Positions 35,050-64,000 of a stretch of DNA of 64,000 nucleotides are shown here, in pieces. The DNA is taken from the NCBI GenBank assembly GCA_948567375.1, contig OX419755.1, positions 61,763,945-61,827,944 on the forward strand, given 5' to 3'. This DNA comes from Lunularia cruciata. Taxonomy: Eukaryota > Streptophyta > Marchantiopsida > Lunulariales > Lunulariaceae. Made by a program: the position numbers and the translations under genes. The notes below the pieces were generated by a model. That model did not search any database and had not been told where the DNA came from. It was given only the letters and a program-made list of their open reading frames with translations. Every line of letters starts with the position of its first letter. The first letter of the stretch is position 1.

Positions 35050-35057
35050 TATAAAAA
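35050..35057 (+). promoter_or_regulatory. TATA box of giant LTR D
   Basis: TATAAAAA, first T 27 bases before the ATG at 35077, as in the other giant LTRs. Confidence 0.7.
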
Positions 35058-35076
35058 TTGGGCTAAAGACAAAGCA

Positions 35077-37641: not shown

Positions 37642-38419
37642 TAACCGATTTGAGATTTGAGTAGGCAGATATGAAGAAGTGCATTGTCATTTCAGATTTG
37701 CAGGTTTGTAGAGTCATTAGGAAGAGGTGCATTAAGAAGATAATTGTCGATTGTTTCACTACTTAAGAGTGGCATTCGCAGTCATATGTTGTTTAGTGCT
37801 CATAATTCTGAGAATAAATAAAGCAAAGTGCTGTGAAGCAGTGCTTGTTACTTAAGCTTGATTCAGAGTATCAACTTTGTGTTTGTGTTTGTGAGTGTGG
37901 AGAATTTTGAAGTGCAAATCAATGTGTTTGTTGGATGTTGGATTCTGCATCCTTGATCTTCATTCTATGTGTTTGATCCTGAATGAGGTGCAATCGAGGC
38001 AATGCCTTGACAGATTTGAGAGGAATTGTAGTGTTGGTAGTATTCTGCATTTGAGAATGCAATGCGAGGTTGATGTGAAGCAATTTTGATTGAGGAAGTT
38101 GTGCCTTCAGTGAAGGGGTGGAACACAATTCTGAGGCAAAGTTGCCATTTTTGGGAGAGCTTGAATCATCACAATCAAGATTGTTTGGAAAGAATTGAAG
38201 GTGTTGTGATTAAGGAGTGTGAATTTGTGACAAGATTGAGAACTAGTGCTTGTTACTCTCTTCTAGGTGTGGTTTCTACTTGAGAGATTAAAGACGCAAC
38301 TAAGAAGAACTACATGTTATTGTTTGACTTTGTATTTGGACATTTCTGACTTGTATCTCTATGGGAACAAACTTTACTTCCTCGATTACCGCAAAAGTGA
38401 TATTTTCTGAGTAGTCACA

Positions 38420-39962: not shown

Positions 39963-39980
39963 TACCCCCTCCCTCAAATG
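39963..39980 (-). promoter_or_regulatory. Polypurine tract of Gypsy-1 copy 2
   Basis: On the coding strand TTGAGGGAGGGGGTA directly precedes the LTR start TGTGGTGCCC. This purine run sets the 3' LTR boundary and so identifies the giant unit as an LTR. Confidence 0.85.
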
Positions 39981-41130
39981 TGAGCGTCCCTGTGAACATA
40001 GACCTCGGGTGTCTTAGAAACTTCCAAGTCTATGGTCCAATATCTCCAAACTCTCCACCCGTTTACTCGAGTGCCTAAAGGATTACCTTCCAAGTCTACA
40101 AGCTGCATGGACCCATTTTTGTAAAGATGAAAAACTCGATAGGGACCCATCCATCTCAAATGCAACTTGCCTAGAAAAAATATTCGGCGATTGTGATATA
40201 ACAAAACCAAATCCCCTTCACGTATAGTTACAGGATTGATTCTCTTATCGTGCTTGACTTTCCTCTGTGCTTGTACTTCTTTTGTGGTTTGCATTGCATT
40301 GTCTCTTTTTTCTCTTTTAACCACATCAGTTGATGAATCCAAAGATCCTGACTTTCCTCTTCCGACATTTGTTCTTCACAAAGAACCCGATATGTCGGTA
40401 CTTCAAATTCAACTAGCAGTATGGGATGCAAGCCATATGTCAAGAAGTATGGAGTTTGTTTGGTTGTAATCTTTTCTGTCATTTGATATGCCCACAACGC
40501 GGTTGGTAATTTTGTATCCCAGTCATAGGCATAATTGACAGTCACCTTATTCAGAATTTTGCAAAGTAACCCATTCGCTTTTTCCGTTAAGCCATTTGCT
40601 TTTGGGTTATAAGGAGTCATCTTCAGATGTTTAATCTGAAAGTACTTGGTTAGCACCTCCATTACAGAGTTCAAAAAATGTGTTCCTTGGTCACTGACCA
40701 ATTCCAGAGGACACCCATATTGGGAGATGATGTTTTGAAAGAAGAATTCCCCCACAGTTTCCGCATCATCTCTACGAGTTGCTTCAGCTTTGACCATCTT
40801 GGTATCATAGTCAGTGCAAACCAAAATGTATCGCTTTCTTGTGACTCGGGTCACTGGTTGAATGGGACCCACAAAATCAATCCCCCATTTCTCAAATGGG
40901 GCCAAAGGAAAAATTGGCCTCAAAGGCCGTTGAGAAGTAGCCGTCGGCTTCCCTGTTCTTTGACAAGCATCACAACTTTGTATATGAGCATGCACGTCTT
41001 TGTACATTGTAGGCCACCAATACCCTGCCAAAAGAGTTTTCTTTACAATTTTCTTCAGAGCATAGTGTCCTCCCAATGCTTTGGAGTGTAAAGATTCAAT
41101 CACTCCTCCTACTTTGTATGACTCTAAGCA
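39974..41130 (-). pseudogene. pol (IN): Gypsy-1 copy 2 integrase
   Basis: A 291-codon open stretch (41103-40228) holds most of integrase. The HHCC finger is visible (HSKALGGHY to SCDACQRTG), then GIDFVGPIQP with the first Asp, LVSDQGTHFLNS with the second and NPKANGLTEKANGL with the Glu. It continues through LWAYQMTEKITTKQTPYFLTYG to the C-terminal part. The last part is in another frame (40342-39974): LHLRWMGPYRVFHLYKNG, then EVYVHRDAHI and the stop. There is no chromodomain. This is the best preserved Gypsy-1 integrase in the window. Confidence 0.92.
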
Positions 41131-41990
41131 TCACCAAAGTACTTTGTCTTTGCCCATCTTAAATAAAGTGTTGTGTTTCAGCTGGTACGGCCCCATTTTC
41201 CTTAGAAAGACTGCCCGCTGTTCCGGGTCCATCCCCTCAAGACAATGAAGAGTATGCAGATAATGATATTCAGCTGCATACCTCGTACTTTGCATTGCTG
41301 ATAAGTGATACAACTCTTTGTCAGGGAACCGATCGTCAATTTCCCACTCTTGGTCTTGAGTTTCTACCCTGAACAAGAAGTCCGCATTCAAATGTGAAGC
41401 TCCCTTCCTTACTTGTACAGTATACATGAACTCCTGTAACAACAAGATCCATCTTGCAATTCGCATGGATAAATCTGCCTTCTTGACCAAATGTTGCAAT
41501 GCGTAATGGTCAACATAGAAGACAAACTCGTACCCCAACAGATAATGGTGAAATTTCTTGCAGGCATACACCATTCCGAGTGCTTCTCTCTCAGTCGTTG
41601 AATAGTTCTTTTTAGAAACTGAAAGTTGTCAGCTGGCATAATACACCGAGTAGTCCTTCTTTTCCTCCTTTTGACTTAAGATGACTCCGATGGCCATGGA
41701 CGAAGTGTCCACATATACATGAAAAAGGACGTCCCAATTCGGGGCTCTCATAATTGGTGCTTCAACCAGCTTCTTTTTCAACACCTGGAAAGCTTCTTCT
41801 TGATTTGCTTCCCACAGATAGTCTTTGGATTTCTTCAGAAGCTTTGTAAGTAGTGCAGCAAGCACTGCATAGTTTGACACGAGCGTATGTAATATCCGAC
41901 ATGTCCTAAGAAGGCTCTCAGCTCCTAGATGTTCTTCGGGGATTCCAAAGCTGCAATTATCTTGACCTTCTCAACATCAACTTCAATACC
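41131..41990 (-). pseudogene. pol (RH): Gypsy-1 copy 2 RNase H
   Basis: RNase H removes the RNA template. It reads VYVDTSSMAIGVILSQ (first Asp) and REALGMVYACKKF, then FYVDHYALQHLVKKADL and ARWILLLQEF, then DFLFRVETQDQEWEID at the C-terminal side. Open pieces are 41880-41629 and 41574-41131 in one frame, separated by a stop. The RT connection (RYYRRF-like region) near 41880-41940 is degraded. Confidence 0.88.
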
Positions 41991-42960
41991 TCAACTTGAC
42001 ACTCGATGCCCTAGAAGAATTCCCTCCTTCATTGTGAAGAAGCATTTCTCTGGGTGTAATGACAAGCCGGCAAAACGACATGTTTCAAAAGTTTGGCTAA
42101 GGTAATCTAAATGTACATCTCTTTGCCCAAACACACAAAAGTCATCTATGAAAACTTCCACAAATTTGCGCAAGAAATCTTTGAAGATTGAATTCATCAT
42201 CCGCTGGAAAGTAGCAGGCGCATTACACAACCCAAAGGGCATTTGATTGTAAGCAAAAGTGCCCAAATCGGTCATGAATGTAGTTTCATCCTTTTCCTCT
42301 TCTCAAATGGATACTTGATAGTACCCTGAAAATCCATCGAGAAAACTATAACAAGGATGACCAGCTACTTGATCTAAAATTGTATCGGTAAAAGGCAAGG
42401 GATGATGATCTTTCCTTGTGACTGCGTTCAACTTCCGGAAGTCTTGGCACACTCGGATCTTCCCTTTTTTCTTCTTTGGGACAATGAAAATAGGGGAAAC
42501 CCATTCACTACTTAAGACAGGGAAGATGATTCCGGCCCCTAAGTACTTATCAATTTCATCTTTCACCAACAGCAAGTACTTTGGGTTTAGGCTGTATTGC
42601 CGTTGCCGAACCAGAACTGCACCTTCAACCAGATCATTTCGGTGTTCTCCGAATTCTCGTGGAATACTTGGCATTTGATTAGTAGACCGGGTGAATACAT
42701 CCTGGAATTCTATAAACAAGGCAGTGTATCCTGCAAACTCTTCCAAAGTGACTATCTTTGAGATTTTCAAAGTTTTTCCTTCAGTTAATAAAACATCTTG
42801 ACAGTCATCGGGGTTGATGACGCCTTCAACGTGGCTTACTCGGCTTAACTCAAGGCGAGCTGCCGTCAAACCCCCTTCCTCCAAGTCAGGTTCACCCGAG
42901 GCGAGGTCATATGGGTCTTTGTCTTTGACATCCACCTTGTAGCATTCCAAGTAGTTAACT
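41991..42960 (-). pseudogene. pol (RT): Gypsy-1 copy 2 reverse transcriptase
   Basis: From 42950 down: a linker with DPYDLASGEPDLEEGG, then FAGYTALFIEFQDVF, an RQRQYSLNP motif, WVSPIFIVPKKKKGKIRVCQD, and PLPFTDTILDQVAGHPCYSF. After one stop near 42303 the palm follows: FAYNQMPFGLCNAPATFQRM and VEVFIDDFCVFGQRD (catalytic FIDD near 42140). Thumb sequence ends EGILLGHRVSS at 41991. Two stops separate it into pieces, but nearly all RT blocks are intact. Confidence 0.9.
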
Positions 42961-43440
42961 TAACTTGGACTTTGTCTTTGGATTTGCCTGAGGACAAAGA
43001 CGATGAGTCTTTGGATTTGTCCTCCTCTTCCGACAAACTTGTTTCCCCGAGGTGGGGAACTTTCCTCCAACTCACAGTCACCAGCTTCTGATCTTTGGAC
43101 AAGATGTCCTTGAATCTTAACTTCTGCTGATGCCAATCCACCACAACTTGGGCGCTATACAACCAGGGTCTTCCGATCAACAGAGGGTAACCAGTCTTTG
43201 TCACTAGTCGCAACACAATGTAGTTCAACTTGAAGGGTACCCCTCCAATGATCGTAGTGATGTTTGACAGCATGCTCAAAGACCGTCTCCTGGTTTGGTC
43301 TGCAAACTTCAACACTTGAGGTGTTGGTTCAAACGTGTGATACCTAAGTCGATTTGCAGTATCTTAGGTCATGACATTCACACCGGACCCAGAGTCAATG
43401 GGTATTGATGTGATCATGCACCCTTCAATCTCCGCATCTA
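42961..43440 (-). pseudogene. pro: Gypsy-1 copy 2 aspartic protease
   Basis: The active-site region (about 43374-43407) reads IDSGSGVNVMT in one frame, giving the DSG triplet. The rest, in another frame (43315-42866), has LKFADQTRRRSLSMLSN, IIGGVPFKLNYIVLRLV, and LLIGRPWLYSAQVVVDWH. An acidic linker rich in Glu/Asp/Ser precedes RT. Frameshift between the active site and the body disables it. Confidence 0.82.
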
Positions 43441-45416
43441 CCTCGGGAGATCCTAAATCTTCTTGTTCAATATGATAGATAGCAGGCAAGTCCTTCTTTG
43501 ACATCGACCTCACCTTCCAGTGCCAAATTCAGCTGCCTCTTGCACAGCTTGTTATCTTCCCACAATTGCTTGAATGTAACGTTGGCATTTGTGGCTGCCA
43601 GATCTGCTACAATATCATATTGGAGGACTCCTCTCAATTTGACCATCTTTGCCTTTGGCTTCGGGTCTGAATTCTCTCCATGTTCCCTCTTGACTTTGGG
43701 ACACTTCAAAATGGTAACGGGCTTGCTAATGGCCTTAACCCGAGGTTCCTCGGGTTGGCTCACCTTGGTTTGGATCAGACCCTTTACTTCGGATCAGATG
43801 TCTGCCGGAAAAACAAGAGACTTTGTCTTTGTCTCCTCTTCCAAACTCAGTTCTTGAGTCCTGAGTAGTGCCTCCTTTAGTTCTTTCTGCAAGGCTTTAG
43901 CTTTGGCTTTTGCAAGGATCTTTTCCTCCTTGGCAGAAAGAATTGCCTTTGAGCGCAGTCTCTTCACCTTTCTGGAAGACAACAAGGTCGTACTCAGTTC
44001 TTTGGGATCACGCTTCATCTTGCTGGAGCGTGTCTCAACTTTCAAAATTTCAAGGTCCAGCCATTCTCCTTCCGAGGCCGGACTCCCTTCTTGAGGTCTT
44101 TCTTCCTCAAGAGTGATACAATTTACATTAGTATCCTCCTTTGGCTGCATTGCTGCACGCTCAACGAGGGTCTGTATATACTTTACAGGCGGCTTTGGGT
44201 TCGGTGGGTGAGGACATTGGTTGCCCGTATGCCCCAATCCCTTACAATTTCCACACAGGGGAACATACCCAATTTGCCTTCTTGGCTTGGGATAGTTTGG
44301 AGACCAATGTCCCATTGAGCCACAATTATAACAGGGCCCGGGTGCAACATTCTGAGGGCAATTATGGTCGCTCATTGGTGGTCTTCGTGGAGGAGCATTG
44401 GGGTTATACTCCCTTGGTCCAAACCTCAAACCTTGGTACGATGTGCTCCCTAGAGGCTATACTTCTTGTGTTTGGTACACAACCTCTTCGTCCTTGTTTT
44501 GGTTCCATCCCGGAACCCAATTGATTTGCTGCACCGAGAATGCATTACGAGTATTGCATTCTATGTTTGCATGGCCTGATTTGCCACATGCGGTGCACCA
44601 TACATTCAATCTCCCAAATGCTGGGGCCTTCCTTCTGTCTTTGGCCCCAATCATCTGGATCTTGAAATCCAAAAAATTCTTGATGAGGGCATCCAGCTTG
44701 GTATCCGCCTTATTTACACTCTTTGCTAGAGGAGTCACTGGTTTCTTGCCCCCACATCTTCTGACTTGTCTTGGCTTTGATTCTTCTTTGGATTCCGAAG
44801 AAGAGCTTGAAGACGTGGAGGACTTGTCCAAAGAAGAGGATGTACTTTGCAAAGCTCTCCTTCAAGGCTTCTTGCCTTTCTTCTCCCAATTTCTCCGGTT
44901 ACCGGCAGAGTGAGAGTGGGCCGCCTCGTAACGAGCAACATGTTTGAGTACTTTGTCCAGGGAAGTTACATTCCTCTCCCTTGTAAAGATTTATATTTTT
45001 GGTGAAAGTCTCCCGAGGAACCAAGTAATGGCTTGGGCATCAGAGTTACCCACCACCCCCAATTGCTTGGGAGCTCGGTTCAATAGTGCCATGAACCGCT
45101 CAGAGTAGTCTCTCAACTTCTCCTTCTTGCCTTGGTCTAAATTGTTTAGTGCCGCAAAGACACTCGTGTCGTTATCAACCTCTTGGAATTGTTCCAGGAA
45201 GTTGTTTCTCAAGTCTGCCCAATCCCCTGGTATGAACCCCTTTTGGGTCACATGGTTGTACCAGCTCCAAGCTTTCTTTCGGAGCAAACTTGGGAAAATT
45301 CTCAATCGATCCGCCAAGTCATGCTCCTTGTTAGCAAAGGAGATGACTTTGAATTCTTTGATGAATTCATTGGGGTCTTTGTCTTGTTCTGTCCCCTTGT
45401 ACTTCTGATAGGCGTG
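43441..45416 (-). pseudogene. gag: Gypsy-1 copy 2 gag with three zinc knuckles
   Basis: Capsid-domain block at 45317-44991 (RIFPSLLRKKAWSWYNHV, FLEQFQEVDN, RDYSERFMALLNRAP, AITWFLGRLS), extending in frame to ~45416. A Ser/Lys-rich segment follows (44852-44630). Three knuckles come next: CTACGKSGHANIEC (~44556-44597), CYNCGSMGHWSPNYP (last Cys lost) and CGNCKGLGHTGNQC (~44216-44257). Then a Lys/Ala-rich helical stretch and FKQLWEDNKLCKR before protease. The gag N-terminus is missing because of the deletion at 45498. A few stops, but the frame is the same from 45317 to 43467. Confidence 0.88.
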
Positions 45417-46235
45417 TCAGGTGACAGACAACAAAGTCATCGTTTGATGCACTGGGATCGGCTGAGGTAGTGCTGAACTTGACAGAACTAAAGGATTGGC
45501 AGAGATACTAGTCAGAAATTTCCAAATACAAAGCAAAGTAACAATTTCAGTTCTTCTTGGTTGCGTCTTTAATCTCTCAGGTAGAAACCACACCCAGAAG
45601 AGAGTAACAAGCTCTGACTCGCAATCTTGTCACAAATTTCACACTCCTTAATCACAACTCCATCAAATCTTTCCAAACAATCTTGATTGTGATGATTCAA
45701 GCTCTCCCAAAAATGGCACTTCACTGCAAAATGACTTTGCCTCAGAATTGTGTTCCACCCCTCCACTAAAGGCACAACTTCCTCGATCAAAATTGCTTCA
45801 CATCAACCTTCCACTGCACTCACAAATGCAGAATACTACCAACACAACAATTCCTCTCAGATGTGTCAAGGCATTGCTTTGATTGCACTTCACTCAAGAT
45901 CAAACACACAGAATGAAGATCAAGGCTACGGAATCCAACATCCAACAAACACACTGACTTGCACTTCAAATTTCTCCAAACACTCACAAACATAGACACA
46001 AAGTTGATACTCGGAATCAAGCTCAAGCAACGAGCACTGCTTCATAGCACTTTGCTCTATCTGTTCTCAGAAATTATGAGCAGTGAACAACATGATACTG
46101 CAAATGCCACTCTTAAATAGTGAAGCAATTGACAGTTCTAACAACTATACCGTTCTACAACAACTCTTCTAACCTGCAGATCCGAAATGACAATGCAGCT
46201 CTTCATATCTGCCTCTTCAAATCTTGAAATTGTTA

Positions 46236-48827
46236 CTAGTCCGATCCAATGTGTACTTCATCATCAGCTTTCAAACCCAAACCCGAAGTAAATTTACTTC
46301 CTACTATTCTGTCCTCGGGTTTCATATCTTCTACTTCTTTTACCAGATCCAGCAATTCTCTTTCTTGATCTGAAATTGCACTAGTGGGTAATCTATCTAA
46401 CTCTTCATCTCTCAACCCACTCTTCTCTAAGGTCTCCACCGGTAGCTCTAAGGACATTTGCACTCCTATGTTATCTACTTCGGGTTTTGCTCTAACATCT
46501 TTCCAAAGTTTTTCTATCTTTATTTTCACTAAGTCTAATCTAATCAAAATGTTATCTTCTACCTCTAAGATCTTTTTGTCTACACAAGTTCTGAGACAAA
46601 TTAACAAGGCATTCATATTTGTATCCTTCGCCTGTCTTTGCCTCGTCTCCTGCACCAACAACTCCAACTCGTGCAGCCTCGTCTCTTCAATCCGAATGAT
46701 GGCCTTTGTACTTAGCATTGCGTTCATCCTGAGGACAATCTCCTTCAATGGCTCCAATCTCATCTTTCTTTCACATTCTTGATCTGCAAGCCAATCCTCT
46801 CGGTACATCGCCAACTCCGCCTCAAACTCAGTTTTCACCGTCTCCTTCTCCTTCTCCTTCTCCTTTTGTACAACTCTCTCCTCCTGATTACGAAGTAACT
46901 CTTGTAATCTTTCTTCTTCTCTATATTGTGTTGCCAACTCTCGTTGCCAAAGTTGCTTCTTCTCCTCGACACTCTCCATCACCCTATCAAGCTCCTGATC
47001 CTTTGCAGCTACTCTTGCCATAGCATGGATAACCTCTACTCTTGAATCAGCAAATTGTTGCTTCAAGATCTTGTACTCTACTACTTGTGTCTCCCTTGCT
47101 ATGTCACTCTTCTTCACAAGATCCTCTCGATAATGCACTTCTCTCTTCAGGTCTTCAATTACTTGACTTCTCACTATTGCCTCGGCTTGCAGTACTTCCC
47201 TTTCCTCCTCACCTCAGGTTATACTCTTCTTCAATTCCGAGTTTTCTTCTTCCAGTCTTGCTAATACCTGCAACACAGTCTTCATCTCTGGACAAGTCGA
47301 CTGCATCTCCTTCTTCCTGTACTCTAGCTTTACCAACAACGGGCACACAACTTCTTGCAAGTACTCCACTCCATCATTGGCAACTACTTCAACCTGTGGA
47401 ATGATCTCCTTCTTTACCTCTTCTTCTCCCGATACTCGCCTTCTTCTCTGTAGTTGTCGTATTGGAATAGACGCCTCACTTCCCAAGCTTTCAAGTGCTT
47501 CTTCCTTCACTATACTTGGACCTGCTTTGAACTTTGCCTTACGTCTCAAGCGAACTCCTCTCTACACAGCGATCTTCTTCTCTTTAGGCTCATTTACTTC
47601 GTCTTCCAACTATGTGTTGTCCTTGGCTTTGATTGCTGCCTGTCCTTCTTCTTCTTCTTCTGCAGCCGCCGGTGCCAATGTCATTTCTCCTACTTCATTG
47701 CTATCGCTACTCATATCTCCACTCTGTAGTGTTAGCTCGGGCTCCTCCTCGTGTTCCAAGTCTTCGGTCTTAAGCTTGGCATCACCTTCCGAGTCTTCAT
47801 CCTCCGACTTGATCACCACCATGCCTCACCTCGGGTTGCCTCTCCTGGTCTTCCGAGGTTTCTTTGTGTCTCTAGCTTTGCCCTGCCAACTTCTCTTCTT
47901 CGTATTTGGGGTACTCACCTTGATCTCCACGTTCTTCCCTGTCTTTGTATAGTAGTCATTGGTGCTCCTGATTTGCAAAATGTATTGCTGGTCCTCGACA
48001 TCGACCTCCTTTCTCAAATCAGGATGGAAGTGCAACACCATCCGAGTTTGCTCCGCCGAGTTCAGCAAATTCAGCCCGAGGTAGAAATGCGCAAAAAAAC
48101 GGCACGATGTAGTGTGGAGGCGATTTATCCTGCAAATTCCACACCATTTGTCTCGTTCTCCCATGGAAACACCTCGCCCAATTGATTGGTTCTCTTGCAA
48201 ATAACTTGTGAAAGAACACTGCTTGGTGCTTCATCACATACGTGGTTCTTTCCGGCTTCAAGATAGCCATTAGCACACTCACAATTCCTCTCTTCATAGG
48301 GTCTTTGTAGCTCTCAACTTTGTACCCATTCTTTGTCCGCTTTGACAAAAATGCATCTCTCACCTCTTGAGTCTCTTGAGTCTCTTGAGCTATCTCTCCC
48401 TTCTCCAAGGATGTGGCCCCTGCTCCGAGCCTGCTTCCTTCCCGAGTATGAGTCTCCAATCCGACTTTGTCCAGTGAGCCGGATTTCCACTCTTCCCTTC
48501 CTCCTCGGGTCCATTGAGACACTTGCTCTCAATGATTTCTATCATGAAACCTGGAAACCTCACATTCCTGTTCCACGCCAAGAAAGTGATCCAAAGTCAG
48601 CTCAAGACTTTGATCCTAGCAATCACATCTAACCTCCAAATGGCATGATTTCTCACTGTGAATTTAGAGTTCTTCTTTCCTCCTCCCATCTCTTTTGCCT
48701 TCTCACTATCTCTTGATTTCACTCTCGAGACTTCTCCCTTACACACTAACGCAATTCCAACTCTATTTCCCTTCACACAATCACCTGCAAGACGACTTCT
48801 CAACAGCAAAGGAAAATTACTCAACAT
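46236..48827 (-). pseudogene. LTR-encoded long ORF in the 5' LTR of Gypsy-1 copy 2
   Basis: Spans 2592 bp (864 codons) from MLSNFPLLLRSRLAG to a stop after IGSD. The C-terminal coil is open for 312 codons (47174-46236). The upstream pieces (47822-47610, 47549-47214, 48200-47826, 48827-48597) are in the same frame, but one middle piece (48522-48019) is in another, so there are compensating indels. Has the Trp-rich N-terminus, acidic region (EDSEGDAKLKTEDLE) and a coil rich in Glu/Lys/Arg. This is a giant LTR attached to its own gag-pol body in the same element, which shows the ORF is part of Gypsy-1 rather than a separate transposon. Confidence 0.82.
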
Positions 48828-48846
48828 TTCGTCATTGCGAGTTCAA

Positions 48847-48854
48847 TTTTTATA
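48847..48854 (-). promoter_or_regulatory. TATA box of Gypsy-1 copy 2 5' LTR
   Basis: TATAAAAA on the minus strand, first T at 48854, 27 bases before the ATG at 48827. Confidence 0.7.
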
Positions 48855-49246
48855 GAGTTGCGCTTTCTTTGTCTTTCTTCACTTTGAGTTTCTACCGAGA
48901 AATCACACCTCTTGCATGCACTTGTCACTGTCAATCAACCTTTGCGCGTATGGGCCGCCGGTTTTTGAACAGTCTCTTTTTGAATTTCTCGCCCCGACGG
49001 AAGGTTGTTAGACTGTCTTCACCTCAGGTTGAGCTCCCCCCAATACAAAGACACCTTACTTCAGGTTGTATGCTGACAGGGCATTTTTGAGTACATTGCT
49101 TTATGACCTGAAGTCACTTTACTTTGGGTTTCATCCCAAAGACTCTTTTCTTTGCCTTCTTTGGCCATACAAGTGCAATCCAACTTCTCTATACACTTCT
49201 TCTTCTTTATTTTGAAAAAAACAAAAAATGTGGGCACCACATCACA

Positions 49247-50260: not shown

Positions 50261-51689
50261 TGTGGTACCCACATTTTTCATTTTGGATGAGTTTTGAAGA
50301 AGAAGTGCCTTGCTGAAACCAAAGAAGTCAACTTTGTGTTAGAGGAAGAAAGACTTGGATTGGATCAGACCCGAAGAAGCTTACTTTGTGTTAGAGGAGG
50401 AAAAAACTTGGATCAGATGCCGAAGGACGGTAGATCCGAAGGAGGAAAGGAAGTTGTAGATCAGGATTCTTGCAGGGGCCATATCTCAATGTCCACAAAT
50501 TCAAATCAAGTGTGCTATATCTCGTTAGAAGCATCTTGTTTAGAGCTTTCCATTGCTACCAAAGTCGCAGAGTTTGAAGGTCTGTAGAGGAAATAACAAG
50601 TATTTGAAGTTTTGGGAGTAGATGTACATAGTAAGTTAGTGTCTTCGGACTTGAGACTTCGGACTTTTGACTTTGGACTTCAGTTTTACACAACTTTGAG
50701 CTAGAAGCTTCTTTGCCTCAAGACAAAGATGACTAGATTTGAGATAGTTGGACCTCGGAGTGCAGTGAAAGTGACTTTGGGAATCTTGCCATAGGCATTA
50801 GAGAGAGTTAGAATAGAGAAAGAATAGATAGTAAGGATAACCATGACTTTAATTTCAGTTCTGATTGAAGATGGAACAAGAATTGAAGGAGAAGTAGCAA
50901 TAGTGAATAAACCCTAAGTGCAAGATCAGACAATAAGTGTCTTTGGGTCAATTACATGAGAGATTATGGGAAAGTGGGTTACAAATTGAAGGCGTAGATA
51001 GTGTACCCATGCTTTCAATTACAATTCTTGATGAGGATATAATGGAATTAGCAAAGGAATCGATAATAGTTAAGTCCAATGTTGCAAAAGTAGGAATTCA
51101 GGTGTCATTGGACTTATTATTAGAGACATTAGAGAAGAGTGGGTCGGGAGATGACAAAGTAGAAGGATTACCCATGAGCTCAATTGTAGATTGTAGTTAA
51201 GAAGTAGTAGAAATCATATCTTGAGTTGATCTTGAGTGAAGTACATCGGAGCAATGCCTTGATAGATCTGAGAGGAATTGTAGTGTTGGTAGTATTCTAT
51301 ATTTGTGAATGTAGCACAAAGTTGATGTGAAGCAATTTTGATCAAGGAAGTTGTGCCTTCAATGGAGGGATGGAATACAATTTTGAGGTGAAGTCATCTT
51401 GCAGTGAAGGGCCATATTCAGTAGAATCTGAATCATCACAATTAAGATTTGTTTGGACAAAATTTGCTATGTTGTGATTAAGGAGTGTGTATTTGTGACA
51501 AGTTGTCAAGATTGTGAGCTTGTTACTCTCTTTTGGGTGTAGTTTCTACCTAAGAAATAAAAGCTGCAACCAAGAAGAACTACATGTTACTGTTTGACTT
51601 CATGTTTGACCAATTCTGAATTATATCTCTGCAGGAACAAACTTTACTTACCCCATTACCGCAAAAGTGATATTTGTCAGATTATCAAA
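50261..51689 (+). mobile_element. Giant LTR 'G', internally deleted, TSD GGAGG
   Basis: A 1429 bp unit, TGTGGTACCCACA...GATTATCAAA, flanked by GGAGG at 50256-50260 and 51690-51694 inside integrase. Both ends are giant-LTR ends (the last CACA is mutated to CAAA), but the middle is short and diverged. The C-terminal ORF segment survives at 50937-51200 (LDLLLETLEKSGSGDDKVEGLPMSS). Most of the promoter and N-terminal ORF are absent. The only other readable piece is 50294-50587, which I do not recognise. Confidence 0.85.
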
Positions 51690-53322: not shown

Positions 53323-55250
53323 TGTGACAACCCGGAAAATATCACTTTTGCAATAATCAGGTAAGTAAAGTTTGTTCCCGCAAAGAAATGAATCAAAATT
53401 GGTCAAATACCAAGCAAAGTAACAATTTCAGTTCTTCTCGGTTGCGTCTTTGATCTCACCATAGGTAGAAACCACACCCAAAAGAGAGTAACAAGCACAA
53501 ATTTGTAGTCTTGTCACAAATTAACACTTCTTAATCACAACTCCATCAAATCTTTTCAAACAATTTTGATTGTGATGATTAAGGCTCTCCCAAAAATGGC
53601 ACTTCATTGCAAAACAACTTTGCCTCAAAATTTTGTTCCACCCCTCCACTGAAGGCACAACTTCCTTGATCAAAATTGCTTCACATCAACCTTGCACTGC
53701 ACTCACAAATGCAAAATACTACCAACACTTCAACTCCTCTTAGATCTATCAAAGCATTGCTCTAATTGCACTTCACTGAGGATCAAACACACAGAGTAAA
53801 GATCAAGGCTGCGGAATCCAACATCCAACAAGCACATTGACTTGCACTTCAAATTTATCCACACACTCACAAACACACACATAGAGTTGATACTCAAAAT
53901 CAAGCTCAAGCAACAAGCACTACTTCACAGCACTGCGCTTTATCTATTCTCAAAAATTGTGAGCACTAAACAACATAAGACTGCAAATGCCACTCTTAAA
54001 TAGTGAAGCAAACAACAATTATCTTCCTAAAGTACCACTTCCTAACAACTATACAAACCTACAAATCCAAAATAACAATGCACCTCTTCATATCTGCCTC
54101 TTTAAATCTTAATTCTATTACAAATCCGATCCGATGTCTACTTCTTCTTTGGCTTTCAAACCCAAACCCAAAGTAACTTTACTTCCTACTACCCTCTCCT
54201 TGGGTTTCATAATGCCTCCGTCCTCTATCAAACCTAACAAATTTTTTTCTTGATTTGAAATTTCACTAGTAGGTAATCTTTCTAACTCCTTATCTCCCGA
54301 CCCACTCTTCTCTAATGTCTCCAATGGTAACTCCAAAGACATCTGCACTCCTACTTCATCTACTTTAGGTTTTGCTCTAACATCCTTCCAAAGTTTATCT
54401 ATCTCTAATTTCACTAAGTCTAATCTAATCGTGATATTGTCTTCTACTTCCAATATCTTCCTATCTACACGAGTTCTTAGACTGATCAACAAAGCATTCA
54501 AGTCTTTGTCCTTTGTATGTCTCCTCCTTGTCTCCTACACCAACAGCTTCAACTCGTGCAGCCTCATCTCTTCGATGCGCATACTGGCCTCTATACTCAG
54601 CATTGCATTCATCCTGATCACAATCTCTTTTAATGGCTCCAATCTCATTTTCCTCTCCCGTTCTTGATCTGCAAGCCAATCTTCTTGATACATTGCCAAT
54701 TCTGCTTCAAACTCAACTTTCACAACCTCCTTCTCCTTCTCCTTTTGTACAATCTTCTCCTCTTGATTGCAAAGTAACTCTCTCAACCTCTCTTCTTCAC
54801 TATACCGCACTATCAACTCTCATTGTCACAACTGCTTCTTCTCCTCTACACTCTCCATCACCCTATCGAGCTCTTGTTCTTTCTCGGCTACTCCTGCCAC
54901 AACATGGATAATTTCTAGTCTTGAATTAGCAAATTGTTGCTTCAAGATTTCATATTCAGCAATTTGTCTTTCCCTTGCTATAACACTTTGCTCTATCAGC
55001 TCCTCCCTATTCCTTGCTTCTCCCTTCAAGTTCTCAATAACTTGATTCTATACTACTATATCTACTCTAAGTACCTCCCTTTCCTCCTCACCTCGGATTA
55101 TACTCTTCTTCACTTCCGAGTTCTCTTCTTCTAATCGGGCTAACACCTACAGCACAATCTTCACCTCCGGAGCTGATTGCACTTGGGGTTACCTTGACTT
55201 GCGGAGTGATCTCCTTCTTCACCTCTTCTTCTCTCGATTCTTGCCTTTTG
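53323..55250 (-). mobile_element. Giant LTR 'H', truncated (minus strand)
   Basis: Begins TGTGACAACCCGGAAAATATC and runs through the non-coding LTR end and the C-terminal half of the ORF to ~55250, where Gypsy-2 LTR sequence starts. A small deletion lies near 55169. The promoter half is missing, so no right-hand duplication can be checked (left flank GTGGA). Confidence 0.85.
54118..55170 (-). pseudogene. LTR-encoded ORF, C-terminal half, giant LTR H
   Basis: Coil segments at 54826-55029, 54535-54816 and 54118-54501 with the family motifs RLEPLKEIVIRMNAML, LEVEDNITIRLDLVKLEI and LPLETLEKSGSGDKELERLP, ending VDIGSDL. Frame changes separate the pieces. The N-terminal domain is gone. Confidence 0.75.
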
Positions 55251-56081: not shown

Positions 56082-56875
56082 TGTGACAACCTAGGAAATA
56101 TCACTTTTGCGGTAATCACGTAAGTAAAGTTTGTTCTCGCAAAGATACTAGTTAGAAATATTGAAATACAAAGTCAAACAGTAACATGTAGTTCTTCTTG
56201 AGTTCTTCTTTAGTCTCTTAGGTAGAAACCACACCCAGAAGAGAGTAACAAGCACTGACTCACAGTCTCGTCACAACACTCTGTCACACTTAATCCCAAC
56301 TCCATCAAATCTTTCCAAACAATCTTGATTGTGATGATTCATGCTCTCCCAAAAATGGCACTCCAATGCAAAACAACTTCACCTCTGAATTGTGTTCCAC
56401 CCCTTCATTGAAGGCACAACTTCCTTGATCAAAATTGCTTCAAATCAACTTCGCACTGCACTACAAATGCAAACTTCTACCAACACTACAATTCCTCTTA
56501 GATCTATCAAGGCATTGCTCTGATTGCACTTCACTAAGGATCAAACACACAAAGTAAAGATCAAGGCTATGGAATCCAACATCCAACAAGCACACTGATT
56601 TGCACTTTGAAATTCTCCACACACTCACAAACACAAGCACAAAATTGATACTCAAAATCAAGCTCAAACAACGAGCACTTCTTCATAGCACTTTGCTATA
56701 TCTATTTGCAGAAATCATGAGCACTAAACAACATATTACTGTGAATGCCACGCTTAAATAGTGAAGCAAACAATAGTTCTAACAACTATACCATTCTATA
56801 ATAACTCTTCTAACCTGCAGATTCCAATGACAATGCACCTCTTCATATCTGCCTCTTCAAATCTCAAAACTATTA

Positions 56876-59458
56876 CTAATCCGATCCAATGTCTACTTCT
56901 TCCTTGACTTTCAAACCCAATCTAGAAGTAACTTCACTCACTACTACTCTATCTTTGGGTTTCACAACTCCTAATTCCTCTACTAATTCTAACATTTTTT
57001 CTTCTTGATCTGCAATTCCACTAGTGGGTAACCTTTCTAAACCTTCATCTCCCGACCCACTATTCTCTAATTCTCCAATGGTTACTCCAAAGACATCTGC
57101 ACTCCTATGTTATCTACTTTGGGTTTTGCTCTTACCTCCTTCCTAAGTTTCTCTATCTCTTATTTGACTAAATCTAATCCAATTGTGATATTGTCTTCTA
57201 CCTCCAATATCTTTCTATCTACACAAGTTCTGAGACTGATCAACAATGCATTCAAATCTTTATCCTTTGCATTTCTCCTCCTCATCTCCTGCACCTTCAA
57301 CTTCAACTCGTGCAGTCTCGTTTCTTCAATAAGCACACTGGCCTCTGTACTTAACATCTCGTTCATCTTGATCACGATCTCCTTCAATGGCTCCAATCTC
57401 ATTTTCCTCTCTCTTTCTTGATCTGCAAGCCAATCTTCTCTGTACATTGCCAATTTTGCTTCAAACTTGGCTTTCACAGTTTCCTTCTCCTTCTCCTTCT
57501 ACACAATCTGCTCTTCTTGATTGCAAAGTAACTCTCTCAACCTTTGTTCCTCTCTATATCTTAGTGGAAACTCTCTTTGCCAGAGCTGCTTCTTCTCTTC
57601 TACACTCTCCATCACCCTATTGAGCTCTTGCTCTTTCTCTACTACTCTTACCATAGCATGGATAATTTCTAATCTCGAATCAACAAACAATTGCTTCAAT
57701 ATTTCATACTCAACTACTTGTCTTTCCCTTGCTATGTCACTATGTTCTATGAGTTCCTCCCTACTCCTTGCTTCTCTCTTCAAATTCTCAATCATTTGAT
57801 TCTGTACTACTACATCTACTCGTAGTACTTCCCTTTCCTCCTCACCTTGGATTATACTCTCTTTAATTTTGAGTTCTCTTCTTCTAATCAAGCTAACACC
57901 TATAACACAGTCTTCACCTCCGGACACTTTGACTGCATCTCCTTCTTCTTGTGCTCTAACTTCACTAACAACGGGCACACAACCTCTCGTAGATACTCTA
58001 CTCCTTCACTCGGAGTTACCTTGACTTGTGGACTTATCTCCTTCTTCACCTCTTCCTCACTCCACACTCGCCTTCTAAGCCATAGCCACCTTATAGGTAT
58101 GGATTCTTTGCTCTCCAAACTTCCATCCTCCTCTTCTCTTACCTTACTTGGTCCATACTCATACTTCGCTTTTTGTCTAGAACAAACTCCTCTCTGAATT
58201 GTTACTCTCTTCTCCTCTTCCTCTAGAACTTTGTCTTCCAGTTTTGTGTTACTTTTCTCCTCCATCCCCATCTTGACTTCCTCCTCTTTGGGTACCGATT
58301 TCATCTCCACTCCATTGTCACTGTCACTACTCTTGTCTCCACTTTGCAGTGTGAACTCGGGTTCTTCCTCCCTCTCCAAATCTTTGGACTTGCACTCGGC
58401 TTCTCCTTCCGATTCTTCTTCCAACAACGTGACTAACACTAGCTCTTTCCTCAGGTTTACCCTTCTAGCCTTCCAAGGTCTCGCTTTCTCTACTTCTTCT
58501 TCTCCTTGTCAACTCCTCTTCTTTGACTTTGGAGATCTCACTTCCAACTACACACTCTGACCCGTCTACATGTAGTACTCATCACTACTCTTGAATGTAT
58601 TGTTGCTCCTCCGTATCGACATCTCTTCTTAAGTCGGGATGGAAATGCAACACCATCTTATTACGCTCCGCCGCATTGAGCAAGTTCATCCCCAGATAGA
58701 AATGGGCTACAAATGACACAATGTAATGTGGAGGCAACTTGTCCCGTAAATTCCACACCATTTGTCTTGTCCTCCCATGAAGACACTTTGCTCAATTACT
58801 TGGCTCCCTTACAAACATCTTATGGAAGAACAATGCTTGGTGCTTCATCACATAAGTTGTTCTCTTTGGCTTCAAGATTGCCATTAGAGCACTTACGATC
58901 CCTCTCTTGACATGATCCTTGTAGCTCTCTACTTTGTAACCATTCTTTGTGCACTTTGAAGAAAAGAGCATCTCTCACTTCTTGGGTTTCTTTGGCTACT
59001 TCTTCCTTTCCCAAGAATGTGGCACCATGCTCTATGCCTACTTCTCTCCTGAGTACTAATCTCCAATCCGACTGTGTCCATCGAGCCAGATTTCCCCTCA
59101 TCCCTTCCTCCTTAGGGCCATCAAGACACTTACTCTCAATGATCTTAGTCATGAACCCTGGAAAGCTAACATTCTAGTTCCATGCCAAGAATGTGATTCG
59201 AAGCCTGCTCAAGACCTCAATTCTTGCAATCACATCAAACCTCCAAATCGCATGATTTCTCACTATAAATTTGGAGTTCTTCTTCCCTCCTCCCATCTTT
59301 CTCTCCTCCACTCTGGGCTGGGGACTATTCTTCCTATTGATTCCTAAATTAACTCTCTCAATTTCCTCTTAACACACTAGCACATCTTTGACTCTACTTC
59401 CCTTCCCACAATCTCTTGCATGACGACTTCTTAACAGCAATGGAAAATTGCTTGTCAT
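56876..59458 (-). pseudogene. LTR-encoded long ORF in 3' LTR of Gypsy-1 copy 3
   Basis: Spans 2583 bp (861 codons) from ATG 59458 to a TAG after a VDIGSD-type end at 56876. N-terminal domain pieces lie at 58820-59300, the acidic middle at 57900-58439 (179 codons), and the coil at 57160-57978 in two pieces. Frame changes and stops interrupt it. Architecture as in LTR B. Because it lies between the LTR start at a PPT and the LTR end, it is carried by the element itself. Confidence 0.78.
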
Positions 59459-59477
59459 CACTTTGTCTTTAGCTCAA

Positions 59478-59485
59478 TTTTTATA
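59478..59485 (-). promoter_or_regulatory. TATA box of Gypsy-1 copy 3 LTR
   Basis: TATAAAAA on the minus strand, first T at 59485, 27 bases before the ATG at 59458. Confidence 0.7.
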
Positions 59486-59865
59486 GAGTTACGCCTTGTT
59501 TGTCTTTCTTCAATTTGAGTTTCTACCAAGGAATCACACCTCTTGTATGCTCTTGTCATTGTCAAGTATCCTTCATGCGTATGACCACCATTTTTTGAAT
59601 GGTCCTTTGTTGAATGTCTTGCCCTGACAAAAAGTTGTTATATTGTCCTCGCCTTGAGTTGAGCACCCCTCGAGACAAAGACTCCTTACTTTGGGTTGTA
59701 TGCTAATAGGGAAATTCCAAGTACCTCACCTCATGACTTGAAGTCACATTGCCTTGGGTTTCATCCCAAGGACACTTTTTTTTGCCTTCTTTGGCCATAC
59801 AAGTGCAATTTGACTTCTCTGTACAGTTCTTCTTCCAAATTGAGAAAAAAAATGTGGGTACCACA

Positions 59866-59882
59866 TACTTCCTCCCTCAAAT
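59866..59882 (-). promoter_or_regulatory. Polypurine tract of Gypsy-1 copy 3
   Basis: On the coding strand TTGAGGGAGGAAGTA directly precedes TGTGGTACCC. Same position as in copy 2, so the 3' LTR begins there. Confidence 0.85.
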
Positions 59883-60828
59883 GTGAGCATCTCCATGAGC
59901 ATAGACTTTGGATGTCTTAGAGACTTCCGAGTCTATGATCCAATATCTCCGAACTCTCCACCCGCTTACTTGAGTGGCAAAAGGATTGCCCTCCAGGTCT
60001 GCAAGTTGAATGGACCCATTTTCATAAAGATGAATAACTCAATAAGGCCCTATCCATCTCAAATGCAACTTGCCTGGAAAAAATATTTGGCGATTGTTGT
60101 ATAACAAAACCAAACCTCCTTTGCAATTAATCATAGGCTTGATGTGCTTATCGTGCCTGACTTTCCTCTACTCTTGTACTTCTTTCATGGTTTGCATTGC
60201 ATCATCTCTTTTCTCTTCTAACCACATCAGTTGATGGATCCTAAGATCTTGGCTTTCTTCCTTTGACAATTGTTCTTTGCAAAGAATCCGATAAGTTGGT
60301 ACTTCAAATTAAACTGGTAGTATGGGATGCAAGCCGTATGTCAAGAAATGTGGAGTTTGTTTGGTTGTGATCTTTTCTGTTGTTTGATATGCCTACAACG
60401 CAGCTGGTAATTTTGTATCTCAGTCATAGGCATAATTGACAGTCACCTTATTCAGAATTTTGCAAAGTAACCTATTTTCCTTTTCCGTTAAGCCATTTGC
60501 TTTTGGGTTCTAAGGAGTCGTCTTCTGATGTTTAATCTGGAATTTTTTTGTTAACGCCTCTATCACAAAGTTTAAAAATTGTGTCCCTCTGTCATTGACC
60601 AATTCCAGAGGATATCCGTATTAGGAGATGATGTTTTGAAAGAAAAATTCCACCATGGTCTCTACATCATCTCTGCGAGTTGCTTCAGCTTTGACCATCT
60701 TGGCAGCATAATTAGTGCAAAAAAAAATGTATCTCTTCCTTGTGACTTGGATCACTAGTTGAATGGGACCTACAAAATCAATTCCCCATTTCTCAAATTG
60801 GGCCAAGGGTAAAATTGAGATGGTAAAA
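59883..60828 (-). pseudogene. pol (IN): Gypsy-1 copy 3 integrase core and C-terminus
   Basis: Core start EKWGIDFVGPIQLVIQVTRKR at 60806-60730 and on; the rest reads through stops: SDQGTHF-like region near 60595, ANGLTEK-like region near 60500, LWAYQ-like at ~60400, and the C-terminal KLHLRWMGPYR segment at ~60050-60080. The final tail ends by ~59890. Many stops. No chromodomain. Confidence 0.85.
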
Positions 60829-60870
60829 TTGATGGCTACTTCTCAAAGGCCATTGAGAAGTAGCCATCAA
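60829..60870. repeat. Perfect fold-back, 18 bp arms, in integrase
   Basis: TTGATGGCTACTTCTCAA (60829-60846), 6 bp loop, and its exact inverse (60853-60870). Copy 2 has only one arm (about 40930-40950). It lies beside a deletion of ~180 bases that removed the integrase zinc finger. Confidence 0.88.
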
Positions 60871-61658
60871 CTTCCATGTTCTCTGACAAGCATCACAGCT
60901 TTGGATATGGGCATGCGTGTCTTTAGCTAATACGGCCCCATTTTCCTAAGAAAGGCTACACTCTGCTCTGGGTCCAGCCCTTCACAACAATGGAGAGTAT
61001 GCAAATAATGATATTTGGTTGCATACCCCATACTTTGCATTGTTGTTAATTGATATAACTCTTCATCAGGGAACCTATCATCAATTTCCCATTCCTGGTC
61101 TTGAGTTTCTAACCTAGACAAGAAGTCCGCATTCGAATGTGATGCTCTCTTCCTTACTTGTACAATATATGTGAATTCTTGTAACAACAAGATCCATCTT
61201 GCAATTTGCCCGAGCAAATCTGCCTTCTTGACCAAATGTTGCAATGCGTAATGGTCAACATAGAAGACAAACTCGTATCCCAGCAAGTAGTGGCAAAATT
61301 TCTTGTAGGCATACACCATTCCGAGTGCTTCTCTTTCAGTCATCAAATAATTCTTTTTGGAAACTAAAAGTTGTCGGTTGGCATAATAAACTGGGTAGTC
61401 CTTCTTCTTCTCGTCCTTTTGACTTAAGACAACTCCAATTGCCATGGACAAAGTGTCCACATATACATGAAAAGGGACGTCCCAATTTGGGGCCCTCATG
61501 ACTGGTGCTTCAACCAGCTTCTTCTTCAATACCTGACAAGCTTCTTCTTGATTTACTTCCCACATGTAGTCTTCGGATTTCTTCAGAAGCTTTGTAGGGG
61601 GTGCAGCAAGCACCACACAATTTGAAAAGAAGCGTCTGTAGTATCCAACGTGTCCCAA
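60871..61658 (-). pseudogene. pol (RH): Gypsy-1 copy 3 RNase H (integrase finger deleted upstream of it)
   Basis: 243 codons open (61658-60927): GHVGYYRRFFSNCVVL, VYVDTLSMAIGVVLSQ, YANRQLLVSKKNYL, then FYVDHYALQHLVKKADLLGQIARWILLLQEF and DFLSRLETQDQEWEID. The stop near 60927 is followed directly by sequence from the integrase finger tail, so ~180 bases (the HHCC region) are missing. RNase H itself is the best preserved in Gypsy-1. Confidence 0.9.
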
Positions 61659-62314
61659 GAAGGCTCTCTGCTCCCGGATGTTCTTGGCGATTCCAAAGGT
61701 GAGATGACTTTGACCTTCTCAATATCAAATTCAATACCTTGGCTTGACACCCAATGCCCCAGAAGAATTCCCTCCTTCATTGCAAAGAAGCATTTCTTTG
61801 AGTGTAATGACAAACCAAAACAACACCTTTCAAAAGTTTGGCAAAGGTAATCCAAATGTACATTTCTTTGCCCAAACACACAAAAATCATCAATGAAGAC
61901 CTCCACAAATTTAAGCAGGAAATCTTTGAAGATTGAATTCATCATCTGCTGGAAAGTAGCAGGAGCATTACACAACCCAAAGGGCATTTGATTGTAAGCA
62001 AAAGTGCCCCAATTGGTTGTGAATGTGGTTTTATCCTTGTCCTCTTCTTGGATGGATACTTGATTGTATCCTAAAAATCCATCGAGAAAACTATAACAAG
62101 GGTGACCAGCTACTTGGTCCAAAATGGTATCAATAAAAGGCAAGGGATGATGATCCTTCCTTGTGATTGCATTCAACTTGCAGAAATCTTGGCACACTTG
62201 GATCTTCCCCATTTTCTTCTTTGGGACAATGACAATGGGTGAAACCCATTCACTACTTAAGACATGAAAGATTATTCTGGCCCCTAAGTACTTGTCAATT
62301 TTGTCTTCCACCAA
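61583..62314 (-). pseudogene. pol (RT): Gypsy-1 copy 3 reverse transcriptase
   Basis: An open 243-codon stretch: WVSPIVIVPKKKMGKIQVCQD, PLPFIDTILDQVAGHPCYSF, TFTTNWGTFAYNQMPFGLCN, then VEVFIDDFCVFGQRNVHLDYL (catalytic FIDD at ~61883-61897) and EGILLGHWVSSQG. The frame shifts where it overlaps the RNase H stretch (61583-61658). All RT blocks are present. Confidence 0.92.
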
Positions 62315-63130
62315 CAGGGAGTACTTTGGGTTCAGACGGTATTGTCTCTGCCAAACCGGAAGTGCACCTTCAACCAGATCAATCCAATGTTCTCCAAATT
62401 CTCATGGAATACTCGGCATTTGATCAATAGACCAGGCAAATACATCTTGGAATTCTATAAACAGGGCAGTGTATTTTGCCAACTCCTCCAAAGTGACTGT
62501 CTTTAAAATTTCAGAATTTTCCCTTCAGTCAAGACAACATCTTGATAGCCATCGGGGTTGATGACTCCTTCAACATGGCTTACTCGGCTTAATTCGAGGC
62601 AAGCTTCCATCAATCCCGCTTCCTCCAAGTCTGGTTCACCCAAGGCAAGGTCATATGGATCTTCATCTTTGACGTCCACCTCGTAGCATTCCAAGTAATT
62701 GACTTGGACTTTGTCTTCGGATTCATCTGAGGACAAAGACGATGAGTCTTTAGATTTGTCCTCATCTTTTGACGAACTAGTTTCCCTAAGATGGGGAACC
62801 TTTTTCCAACTCACAATCACCAACTTCTGGTCTTCGGACAAAATGCCCTTGAATAGTAGATTATATTGGTGCCAATCCACCACAACTTGGGCACTATACA
62901 ACGAGGGTCTTCTGATCAAAAGTGGGTAACCAATTTTGGTCACTGGTTGCAACACAATGTAATTCAACTTTAAGGGCACTCCTCCAATGATTTTCATAAT
63001 GTTTGACAGCATGCCCAATGGCCGTCTCTTGGTTTGGTCTGCAAATTTCAATACTCGGGGTGTTGGTTCAAACATATGATACCCCAATCAATTTGTAGTA
63101 TCCTTGGTGATGACATTCACACCAAAACTC
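62315..63130 (-). pseudogene. pro: Gypsy-1 copy 3 protease and linker
   Basis: Protease: IPIDSSFGVNVITKD around 63100-63140 (DSS at the DSG site, so the Gly is lost), then LKFADQTKRRPLGMLSN, IIGGVPLKLNYIVL and LLIRRPSLYSAQVVVDWH (63087-62850). The acidic linker with SDESEDKVQVNYLECYEVD follows down to 62503. 62315-62502 leads into RT with stops. Confidence 0.83.
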
Positions 63131-64000
63131 GAATCGATGGGTATCAATGTGATCATGCACCCGGCAATCTCCGCATCAACCTTGGGAGATTGCAAATCTT
63201 CTTGTTCAATACAATATAAGACAGGCAGGTCTTTCTTGGACATCGACCTTACTTTCTTGAGGGTTGAATTAAATTGCCTTTTGTATAGCTTGTTATCTTC
63301 CCACAATTGCTTAAATGTGACGTTTGTATTTGTGGCTGCCAAATCCGCTACAATATCATATTGGAGTACTCCTCCCAATTTCACCGTCTTTGCCTTCGGC
63401 TTCGGGTTTGAAGTCTCTCCATGTTCAAATTTGACTTTGGGGCGCTCCAAAATGGTGATGGGAGTGCTAGAAGTCTTGACCTAAGGTTCCTTGGGTTGGC
63501 CTACCTCGGCTTGGATCAGACCCTTCACTTTGGATCGGATGTCTGACGGAAAAACTAGAGGCTTCATCTTTGTCTCCTCCTCCAAAATCATTTAGCGGGT
63601 CTTGAGTATCACTTCCTTGAGTTCTTTTTGCAAGGCTTTAGCTTTGGCTTTAGCAAGGATCTTTTCCTCCTTGGCAGAAAGGATTGCTTTTGGGTATAGC
63701 CTCTTTTCCTTTTTGGAAGACGACAAGGTCGTACTCAGTTTTTTGGGATCACGCTTCTTCTTACTTGTGTGTGTCTCAACTTTCAAATTTTCAATGTCCG
63801 GCCATTCTCCTTCCAAGGCCGGACTCCCTTCTTGAGGCCTTTCCTCCTCAAGTGTTATACAATTTACAGTCGTATCACTCTTCACCTAAAGTGCTACATG
63901 CTCAACCGGGGTTTGTACATACTTTATAGGCGGCTTTGGGTTTGGTAGGTGAGGGCATTGGTTGCTTCTATGACCCAATCCTTTGAAATTTCCGCACAAG
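63131..64000 (-). pseudogene. gag: Gypsy-1 copy 3 gag, C-terminal part
   Basis: FKQLWEDNKLYKRQF (63300s) and a Lys/Ala-rich helix ILSAKEEKILAKAKAKALQKEL (63680-63590) as in copies 1 and 2. The third zinc knuckle is at the window edge (63960-64000, read on the minus strand). The rest of gag and the 5' LTR lie beyond the window. Stops interrupt the frame. Confidence 0.82.

Follow-up and report, generated by a model that had tools for sequence, protein, structure and literature searches.

Can the long terminal repeat (LTR) of a plant retrotransposon contain a protein-coding gene that is maintained by selection? In plants, LTRs usually count as control DNA, and solo copies of them as non-coding. 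The question is raised by a 64,000-nt stretch of the genome of the liverwort Lunularia cruciata (contig OX419755.1; the whole stretch is hereafter the window), in which a 3784-bp unit at 56082-59865, LTR J, was predicted from the sequence to be a giant LTR encoding its own protein. We report that the unit is an LTR of a Ty3/Gypsy element and that a selected protein is almost certainly encoded in this LTR.

The ORF-bearing unit is the LTR of a Ty3/Gypsy element

The window consists of nested Ty3/Gypsy insertions, and its LTR copies, A to K, were located by BLAST (Table 1). On the minus strand, LTR J starts with TGTGGTACCC at 59865 and ends with TTGTCACA at 56082. It is preceded on that strand by the end of the integrase, the stop codon and GGGAGGAAG-TA, which is followed by TGTGGTACCC, and the same order is found at 39963. 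Thus, the polypurine tract (PPT) that the original prediction placed directly before the LTR is present at both sites, but two bases (TA) intervene. The pol stop codon starts ~14 nt ahead of the LTR, and the open reading frame (ORF) in the LTR is the next long frame past pol. Perfect 5-bp target duplications flank four solo LTRs in the window (CCTGA, GTTTG, AGTAT and GCACT); the last three belong to the copies of 3784, 3781 and 3758 bp for which shared ends and such duplications had been predicted, as is indeed the case. Moreover, both LTRs are present in one whole element of the window (38420-49241).

We searched the genome (565,766,749 bases in 74 contigs) with the LTR, the LTR protein and the integrase. 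A genome report on L. cruciata describes a 580-Mb assembly and Ty3/Gypsy bursts (PMC9985172). The DNA search with the LTR gave 16,090 candidate places, of which 38 were scored; the protein search gave 34,507 candidates, of which 56 were scored, these being the best ones, including B, and not a fair sample; and the integrase search gave 36,249 candidates, of which 131 were scored. The three totals count unscored candidates and are not copy numbers. Among the 38 scored LTR loci, L001 and L009 are the window copies J and B. By script, the other 36 were assigned to five classes: identical 5-bp flanks (13), a left-hand PPT (10), a right-hand primer binding site (PBS) (2), differing flanks (8) and undetermined (3); the script scored L008 as solo although a PBS-like sequence follows the LTR, and found no end motif at L030, yet the flanks of this locus match.

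A search for the partner LTR at 11 loci recovered five (L039, L042, L044, L045 and L046) and a truncated one (L041). The other five gave no usable partner: L040 shows the LTR of L017, and L043, L047, L048 (where there is a 73% relative) and L049 have no partner from the same lineage. In L038/L046, both LTRs are full length (3774 and 3774 bp), are 95.9% identical and have CTACA on both sides. Both LTRs are also full length in L034/L045 (96.0% identical), where the flanks are AATGC and TGTGC, so that there is no duplication. In L010/L039 (about 97% identical, duplication CTGCA) one partner is damaged, in L032/L044 (95.4%, duplication CTACT) the partner is damaged or partial, and the L023/L042 pair lacks the 5' start. 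The 5' LTR of L046 is followed by TGATTTT and then TGGCGCCGCTGCCGGGGAT, which we take to be a PBS of the tRNA-Asp type; the sequence is near-identical in L045, L042, L010 and L011.

Because LTR pairs, PBS sequences, PPTs and target duplications were found, with solo copies flanked by duplications and, elsewhere in the genome, three further elements with PBS or PPT that have paired LTRs and perfect duplications, we consider it settled that the ORF-bearing 3.78-kb unit is the true LTR. Full elements carry this unit at both ends rather than having the ORF region at one end only, and an independent transposon mistaken for an LTR is ruled out by the LTR pairs together with the PBS and PPT.

Along 45498-39963, Pfam detected, in this order, Retrotrans_gag, zf-CCHC, RVT_1, RT_RNaseH, Integrase_H2C2 and rve. 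RVT_1 is weak here (83 positions) and strong in element J, and the protease was recognised by eye only. With this domain order, LTR pairs, PBS, PPT and target duplications all present, the element is a Ty3/Gypsy LTR retrotransposon. No chromodomain was among the Pfam matches in a search that ended short of the last stretch of pol, and Pfam detected one RNase H region only in the open pieces searched, which are part of all pieces. Riccia fluitans and Marchantia supply the best named integrase matches, each with 66% identity across roughly four fifths of the query. The element is probably of the non-chromoviral OTA (Tat/Athila-like) kind and may be Tat Z-like, a lineage for which a tRNA-Asp type of PBS would be expected.

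The LTR ORF has evolved under purifying selection

The ORF starts at a conserved ATGGGAGG, and its ATG is kept in 44/45 copies. In all 56 best copies, 811/811 codons were matched in one frame, and the ORF lies inside the LTR in every lineage with enough LTR left. A stop-free frame exists in 2 of these 56 copies. For codon positions, we compared copies A, B, D, E, G and J in windows along the LTR, excluding the B-D pair. Differences are concentrated at third positions from ~nt 600 to 3000 of the LTR, with window ratios of 1.33-3.42; the ratios of the flanking windows are 0.95-1.20 upstream and 0.98-1.94 downstream, 1.94 being that of the last short window. Third positions show almost no excess at nt 361-600 (ratios 1.20 and 1.12). 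The predicted length of ~860 codons is therefore too long: the selected ORF has 811 codons, and the extra upstream stretch is without coding signal. The ORF announced for LTR J is real as an ORF of the family, but this copy is dead, being interrupted by stops and frameshifts (Table 1).

The pairwise ratio of nonsynonymous to synonymous divergence (dN/dS) between lineages in the window is 0.14-0.41 in frame, as opposed to 0.55-1.98 for between-lineage pairs in shifted frames. Among the scored genome copies, 31 B-like copies compared with 8 J-like ones gave a dN/dS of 0.12-0.18 in 248 pairs with a median dS of 1.2. In the six pairs tested, the third-position excess persists when only transversions are counted; therefore, it is not a methylation artefact.

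As a neutral control, we used the LTR pairs of six single elements, in which ORF differences are distributed 159:142:152 by codon position. Five lineage pairs deviate from this control with chi-square p values of 2e-4 to 6e-12. The L032/L044 pair includes a misaligned tail in the genome dN/dS comparison, and this tail was left out of the codon-position control. Stops common to both LTRs of one element number 0 in 3/4 pairs and one in the fourth pair, where the site is a stop in several other copies. Because LTR pairs share hardly any stops, the elements must have inserted with an open or almost open frame, which then decays. In total, the codon-level constraint proposed as a check is present between lineages and the corresponding bias is absent between paired LTRs, and these sequence comparisons show purifying selection on the protein in replicating lineages and none that is detectable after insertion.

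Several observations weigh against this conclusion. Most copies are broken, with at least 1 stop in 54/56 of the best copies picked from the 34,507 candidates. Within groups, dN/dS medians are higher, i.e. 0.32 for B-like and 0.43 for J-like copies, as expected because much of the difference arose after insertion. Moreover, neutral LTR pairs gave a dN/dS of 0.47-0.70 (four pairs) and 0.55 for G-F rather than 1, and we therefore used 0.5-0.7 as the neutral yardstick for this method. The dN/dS approaches this yardstick in a small number of pairs that are short or saturated (J-C 0.41, I-K 0.36 and A-C 0.35).

Some sites are occupied by ORF-breaking stops in more than one copy (e.g. LTR nt 865, 1189, 2449, 2530 and 2764). 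Such recurrence would be expected from decay of methylated cytosines in silenced copies; shared descent is another possible cause.

Divergence at fourfold sites is higher in the ORF than at the integrase end (0.423 v 0.292, 0.328 v 0.190 and 0.438 v 0.194, i.e. about 1.4-2.3 times), as might result from exchange of ORF cassettes between lineages. However, recent copies also show a ratio of about 1.5 (0.095 v 0.064 and 0.150 v 0.103), so that mutation bias may account for the excess.

Diverged lineages carry the same ORF

The ORF version in the 3' LTR of element K reaches 54% identity over 163 residues, with lower values in its other parts. Used as a genome query, it gave 150 scored matches which, except for K itself, are 66-77% identical to K. 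L050 is a 3787-bp LTR with the ends TGTGGTACCT...TTGTCACA and an ORF in one frame with three stops that shares 329 identities over 772 codons (43%) with that of L021, one of the stop-free copies. Changes by codon position are 308:262:450 between L050 and L021, and 0.253:0.242:0.465 between L050 and K. The flanks of L050 are unmatched (CCTAT/TGTAC) and its solo status is unproven. Fragments at 32-39% identity lie in the flanks of five other loci. Such coexistence of diverged versions (43% over the whole ORF, 32-39% in fragments) would fit a protein engaged in conflict with host silencing or with rival families.

R-U5 (LTR nt 3000-3784) is far better conserved than either U3 or the ORF, with 85/781 differences between L050 and L021 as opposed to 199/492 in U3. 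This suggests strong constraint in cis or exchange at R.

The protein has no recognised relatives

In the L021 protein, the N-terminal 240 residues are Trp-rich (7 Trp), residues 301-360 form an acidic stretch (42% D+E), and the C-terminal part has a moderate heptad bias (15 windows, compared with a mean of 3.7 and a maximum of 23 after shuffling). The protein features a Trp-rich domain, an acidic linker, basic patches and a possible coiled coil. Of the predicted architecture, the Trp-rich domain and the acidic middle stand by composition, but the coiled coil is only suggested, its 15 heptad-biased windows lying within the shuffle range.

Queries with the LTR protein of a protein set including the predicted proteins of Riccia, Marchantia and Calypogeia gave 7999 and 766 scored candidates, none matching at E 0.001 and E 10; as a positive control, an integrase query of the same set matched 376/990 candidates. 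In PDB, there was no match by sequence and one chance-level match by profile (E 1.5), and Pfam returned no family for any ORF piece searched. PF10536, PF03078 and PF04195 were not listed at E ≤ 10 for P0001-P0003, the L021 ORF, the K piece or the L050 pieces, in searches in which the HMMER filters discard most matches above about 0.1. One viral-contig scan reported a stretch, without locus, as encoding a relative of the LTR protein, while other viral-contig scans gave none; records of the same or a very near genome may be excluded in the former.

Each LTR may be a transcription unit of its own

TATAAAA is present ~165 bp 5' of the ATG in 43/45 copies and also in K and L050; lineage A (one copy) has TATAAGA in its place. 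A second, TATA-like box, TATTTAA (41/45 copies), and a poly(A)-like signal, AATA[AG]ATAAA (42/46), are located 120-180 bp past the ORF stop. Hence, a TATA box precedes the ORF as predicted, but there are two TATA-like boxes, the second after the ORF, and not a single one per copy.

The downstream box would start the genomic RNA, and from this layout of box and poly(A)-like signal we infer that the ORF region is U3. Being part of U3, the ORF is expected in both LTRs after each reverse transcription. From the upstream box, a short mRNA encoding the protein would be transcribed, with its 3' end at the poly(A) signal in R of that same LTR. There would then be two transcription units per LTR, i.e. 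the short protein mRNA and the genomic RNA starting in R, and every LTR, including solo ones, would be a complete gene. We slightly favour such an own promoter for the LTR ORF. Two points tell against it: the promoter roles are read from motifs, and the block with the upstream box is no more conserved than neighbouring U3 (0.86-0.89 per 10-bp block).

Overall, the element is probably an OTA (Tat/Athila-like) Ty3/Gypsy element with an accessory gene in U3. The most likely mode of action of the protein is in trans, with the RNA, DNA or chromatin of the element itself as target. Because it is conserved and without recognisable enzyme domain, a trans-acting anti-silencing or RNA-binding role can be guessed at; anti-silencing is our first guess, and a doubtful one. 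It is an only slightly less tentative suggestion that each LTR is a self-contained gene and that the family fills the genome with copies of a trans-acting factor, which persist in solo LTRs and of which ancient versions coexist.

Alternative explanations

The same gene could be expressed differently, as the last cistron of the genomic RNA, read from U3 of the 3' LTR in full-length or spliced RNA, as with sag of mouse mammary tumour virus and lentiviral nef, with the upstream TATA box being unimportant. The position of the ORF immediately after pol, the usual R layout formed by the downstream box and the poly(A)-like signal, and the unexceptional conservation around the upstream box all fit this alternative, which has a fair but clearly less than even chance of being correct; TATAAAA, which is kept in nearly all copies and even in lineages as diverged as K and L050, tells against it. 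Slightly more probable, while still short of an even chance, is an origin of the gene from the 3' extra ORF (eORF-3'F, 'env-like') that many OTA elements have downstream of pol, and which would have become part of the LTR through a shift of the PPT to a position directly behind the integrase. The short gap between the pol frame and the LTR, with the ORF coming next inside the LTR, is consistent with this origin; by contrast, the three Pfam families named above are unmatched in the pieces searched, and a search confined to this genome revealed no relative that has the ORF outside its LTR. This origin concerns ancestry and is compatible with an accessory gene in U3 of an OTA element.

That a liverwort gene was captured by transduction into U3 and retained there would account for a family without known relatives in elements, but is improbable, as no homologue was among the scored candidates of the protein set with Riccia, Marchantia and Calypogeia. 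The ORF might finally be an accident of purine-rich, stop-poor sequence or of nucleic-acid constraint. The coding strand is indeed purine-rich, with negative GC and AT skew on the plus strand at 54001-60000; yet the codon-position pattern stays in phase over 2.4 kb and is near-absent in the flanks, and we give this explanation virtually no weight. Chance or nucleic-acid constraint as the cause of the ORF is refuted by the LTR-pair control, the transversion test and the shifted-frame dN/dS.

Comparison with known systems

In mouse mammary tumour virus (MMTV), the sag protein gene is in U3 of the LTR and so in both LTRs. The arrangement described here is alike in that the selected ORF is wholly in the presumed U3 and in both LTRs; it differs in the plant host, the 811 residues and the TATA box directly upstream in each LTR, the two being compared by layout alone. 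The spumavirus bel/bet and lentiviral nef genes are 3' accessory genes overlapping U3 that start before the PPT or LTR, whereas the ORF here is entirely within the LTR. LARDs (large retrotransposon derivatives) and Ogre elements have LTRs of 4-5 kb that are taken as non-coding; the giant LTRs are alike, but only the element described here has a coding LTR. The eORF-3'F of OTA and SIRE elements is described as an accessory ORF next to the 3' end of pol (PMC6317226). An accessory ORF near the 3' end of pol is shared with the element reported here, in which, however, the ORF is on the LTR side of the PPT and the three named Pfam domains are unmatched. It is unproven that a plant LTR protein of this size is unprecedented, the phrase searches having covered open-access literature only.

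A selected 811-residue LTR protein would make an abundant repeat class of this genome a protein family, and trans factors encoded by the element could survive as solo LTRs. The MMTV-type arrangement of a gene in U3 would have an independent counterpart in plants, and the family would offer a direct test case for the role of the extra ORFs of plant retroelements.

Organisation of the window

The coordinates of the features are listed in Table 1. The protease, RNase H and integrase remnants of element J were identified by eye and by similarity to 39963-45498.

Table 1. Features of the window, with strand and supporting details
Feature	Positions	Strand	Details
LTR J, 3784 bp, 3' LTR	56082..59865	-	internal region of the element reaches the window edge
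LTR ORF in J, decayed	56879..59296	-	tblastn; 9 in-frame stops, four frameshifting indels
Upstream TATA box TATAAAA in J	59479..59485	-	LTR nt 381
Downstream TATA-like box TATTTAAG in J	56753..56760	-	LTR nt 3106; R would start ~30 bp on
Polypurine tract and TA before LTR J	59866..59880	-	sequence
Internal region of element J	59881..64000	-	reverse transcriptase (RT) by Pfam; protease, RNase H and integrase remnants
Solo LTR B, 3784 bp	18050..21833	+	duplication GTTTG
LTR ORF in B, 811 codons	18602..21034	+	one frame, 5 stops, 0 frameshifts; terminal stop 21035-21037
Solo LTR D, 3781 bp	26097..29877	-	duplication AGTAT; ORF 29324-26893
Solo LTR E, 3758 bp	34662..38419	+	duplication GCACT; ORF 35215-37635
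5' LTR G of whole element	45499..49241	-	last 57 nt and PBS region missing; ORF 48689-46239
Internal region of whole element: gag capsid, zinc knuckles, RT, RNase H, integrase	39963..45498	-	
3' LTR F of whole element, internally deleted	38420..39962	-	element duplication TCACA
Solo LTR A, diverged lineage (72-74% nt)	4649..8245	-	duplication CCTGA; ORF remnants 7665-5524
3' LTR of third, older element K	17808..23853	+	interrupted by solo LTR B; ORF pieces 22161-22858 and 23422-23844
Truncated LTR I	53323..55247	-	C-terminal half of ORF 55176-54124
Truncated LTR C	24005..25617	-	diverged ORF C-terminus (about 41% amino acids)
LTR fragment H (3' end of LTR)	51226..51675	+	BLAST

LTRs F and G are 94.5% identical over 1299 shared nt, and the internal region of element K occupies 1-4648 and 17378-17807. 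Insertion of the whole element F-G into the final 5 bp of LTR E, at a later time, explains why the second GCACT of E is 10.8 kb away. Scans of the window for Rfam families and tRNAs gave no match.

The positions of several copies of the family coincide with the ends of other copies or are only a few bases away from them (38415-38424, where F-G is in E, and 24005 in the window; overlapping or abutting matches at C10:57133811 and C11:29285253 elsewhere), which hints at a possible preference for inserting at LTR ends.

A second Ty3/Gypsy element at 9249-17080 has LTRs of ~695 bp that are 98.3% identical, a gag ORF of 538 amino acids and a pol ORF of 727 amino acids; its LTRs of ordinary size contrast with the giant LTRs of the same nest. 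Relatives of this element are present in inverted orientation at 29876-34661 and 49247-53096. Copies or fragments of a 690-bp repeat are located at 8544-9234, 25616-26096, 52407-53096 and 55332-55787 and are about 89-94% identical to each other and to the ~695-bp LTRs; one of these copies sits in tandem with an LTR of the element at 9249-17080.

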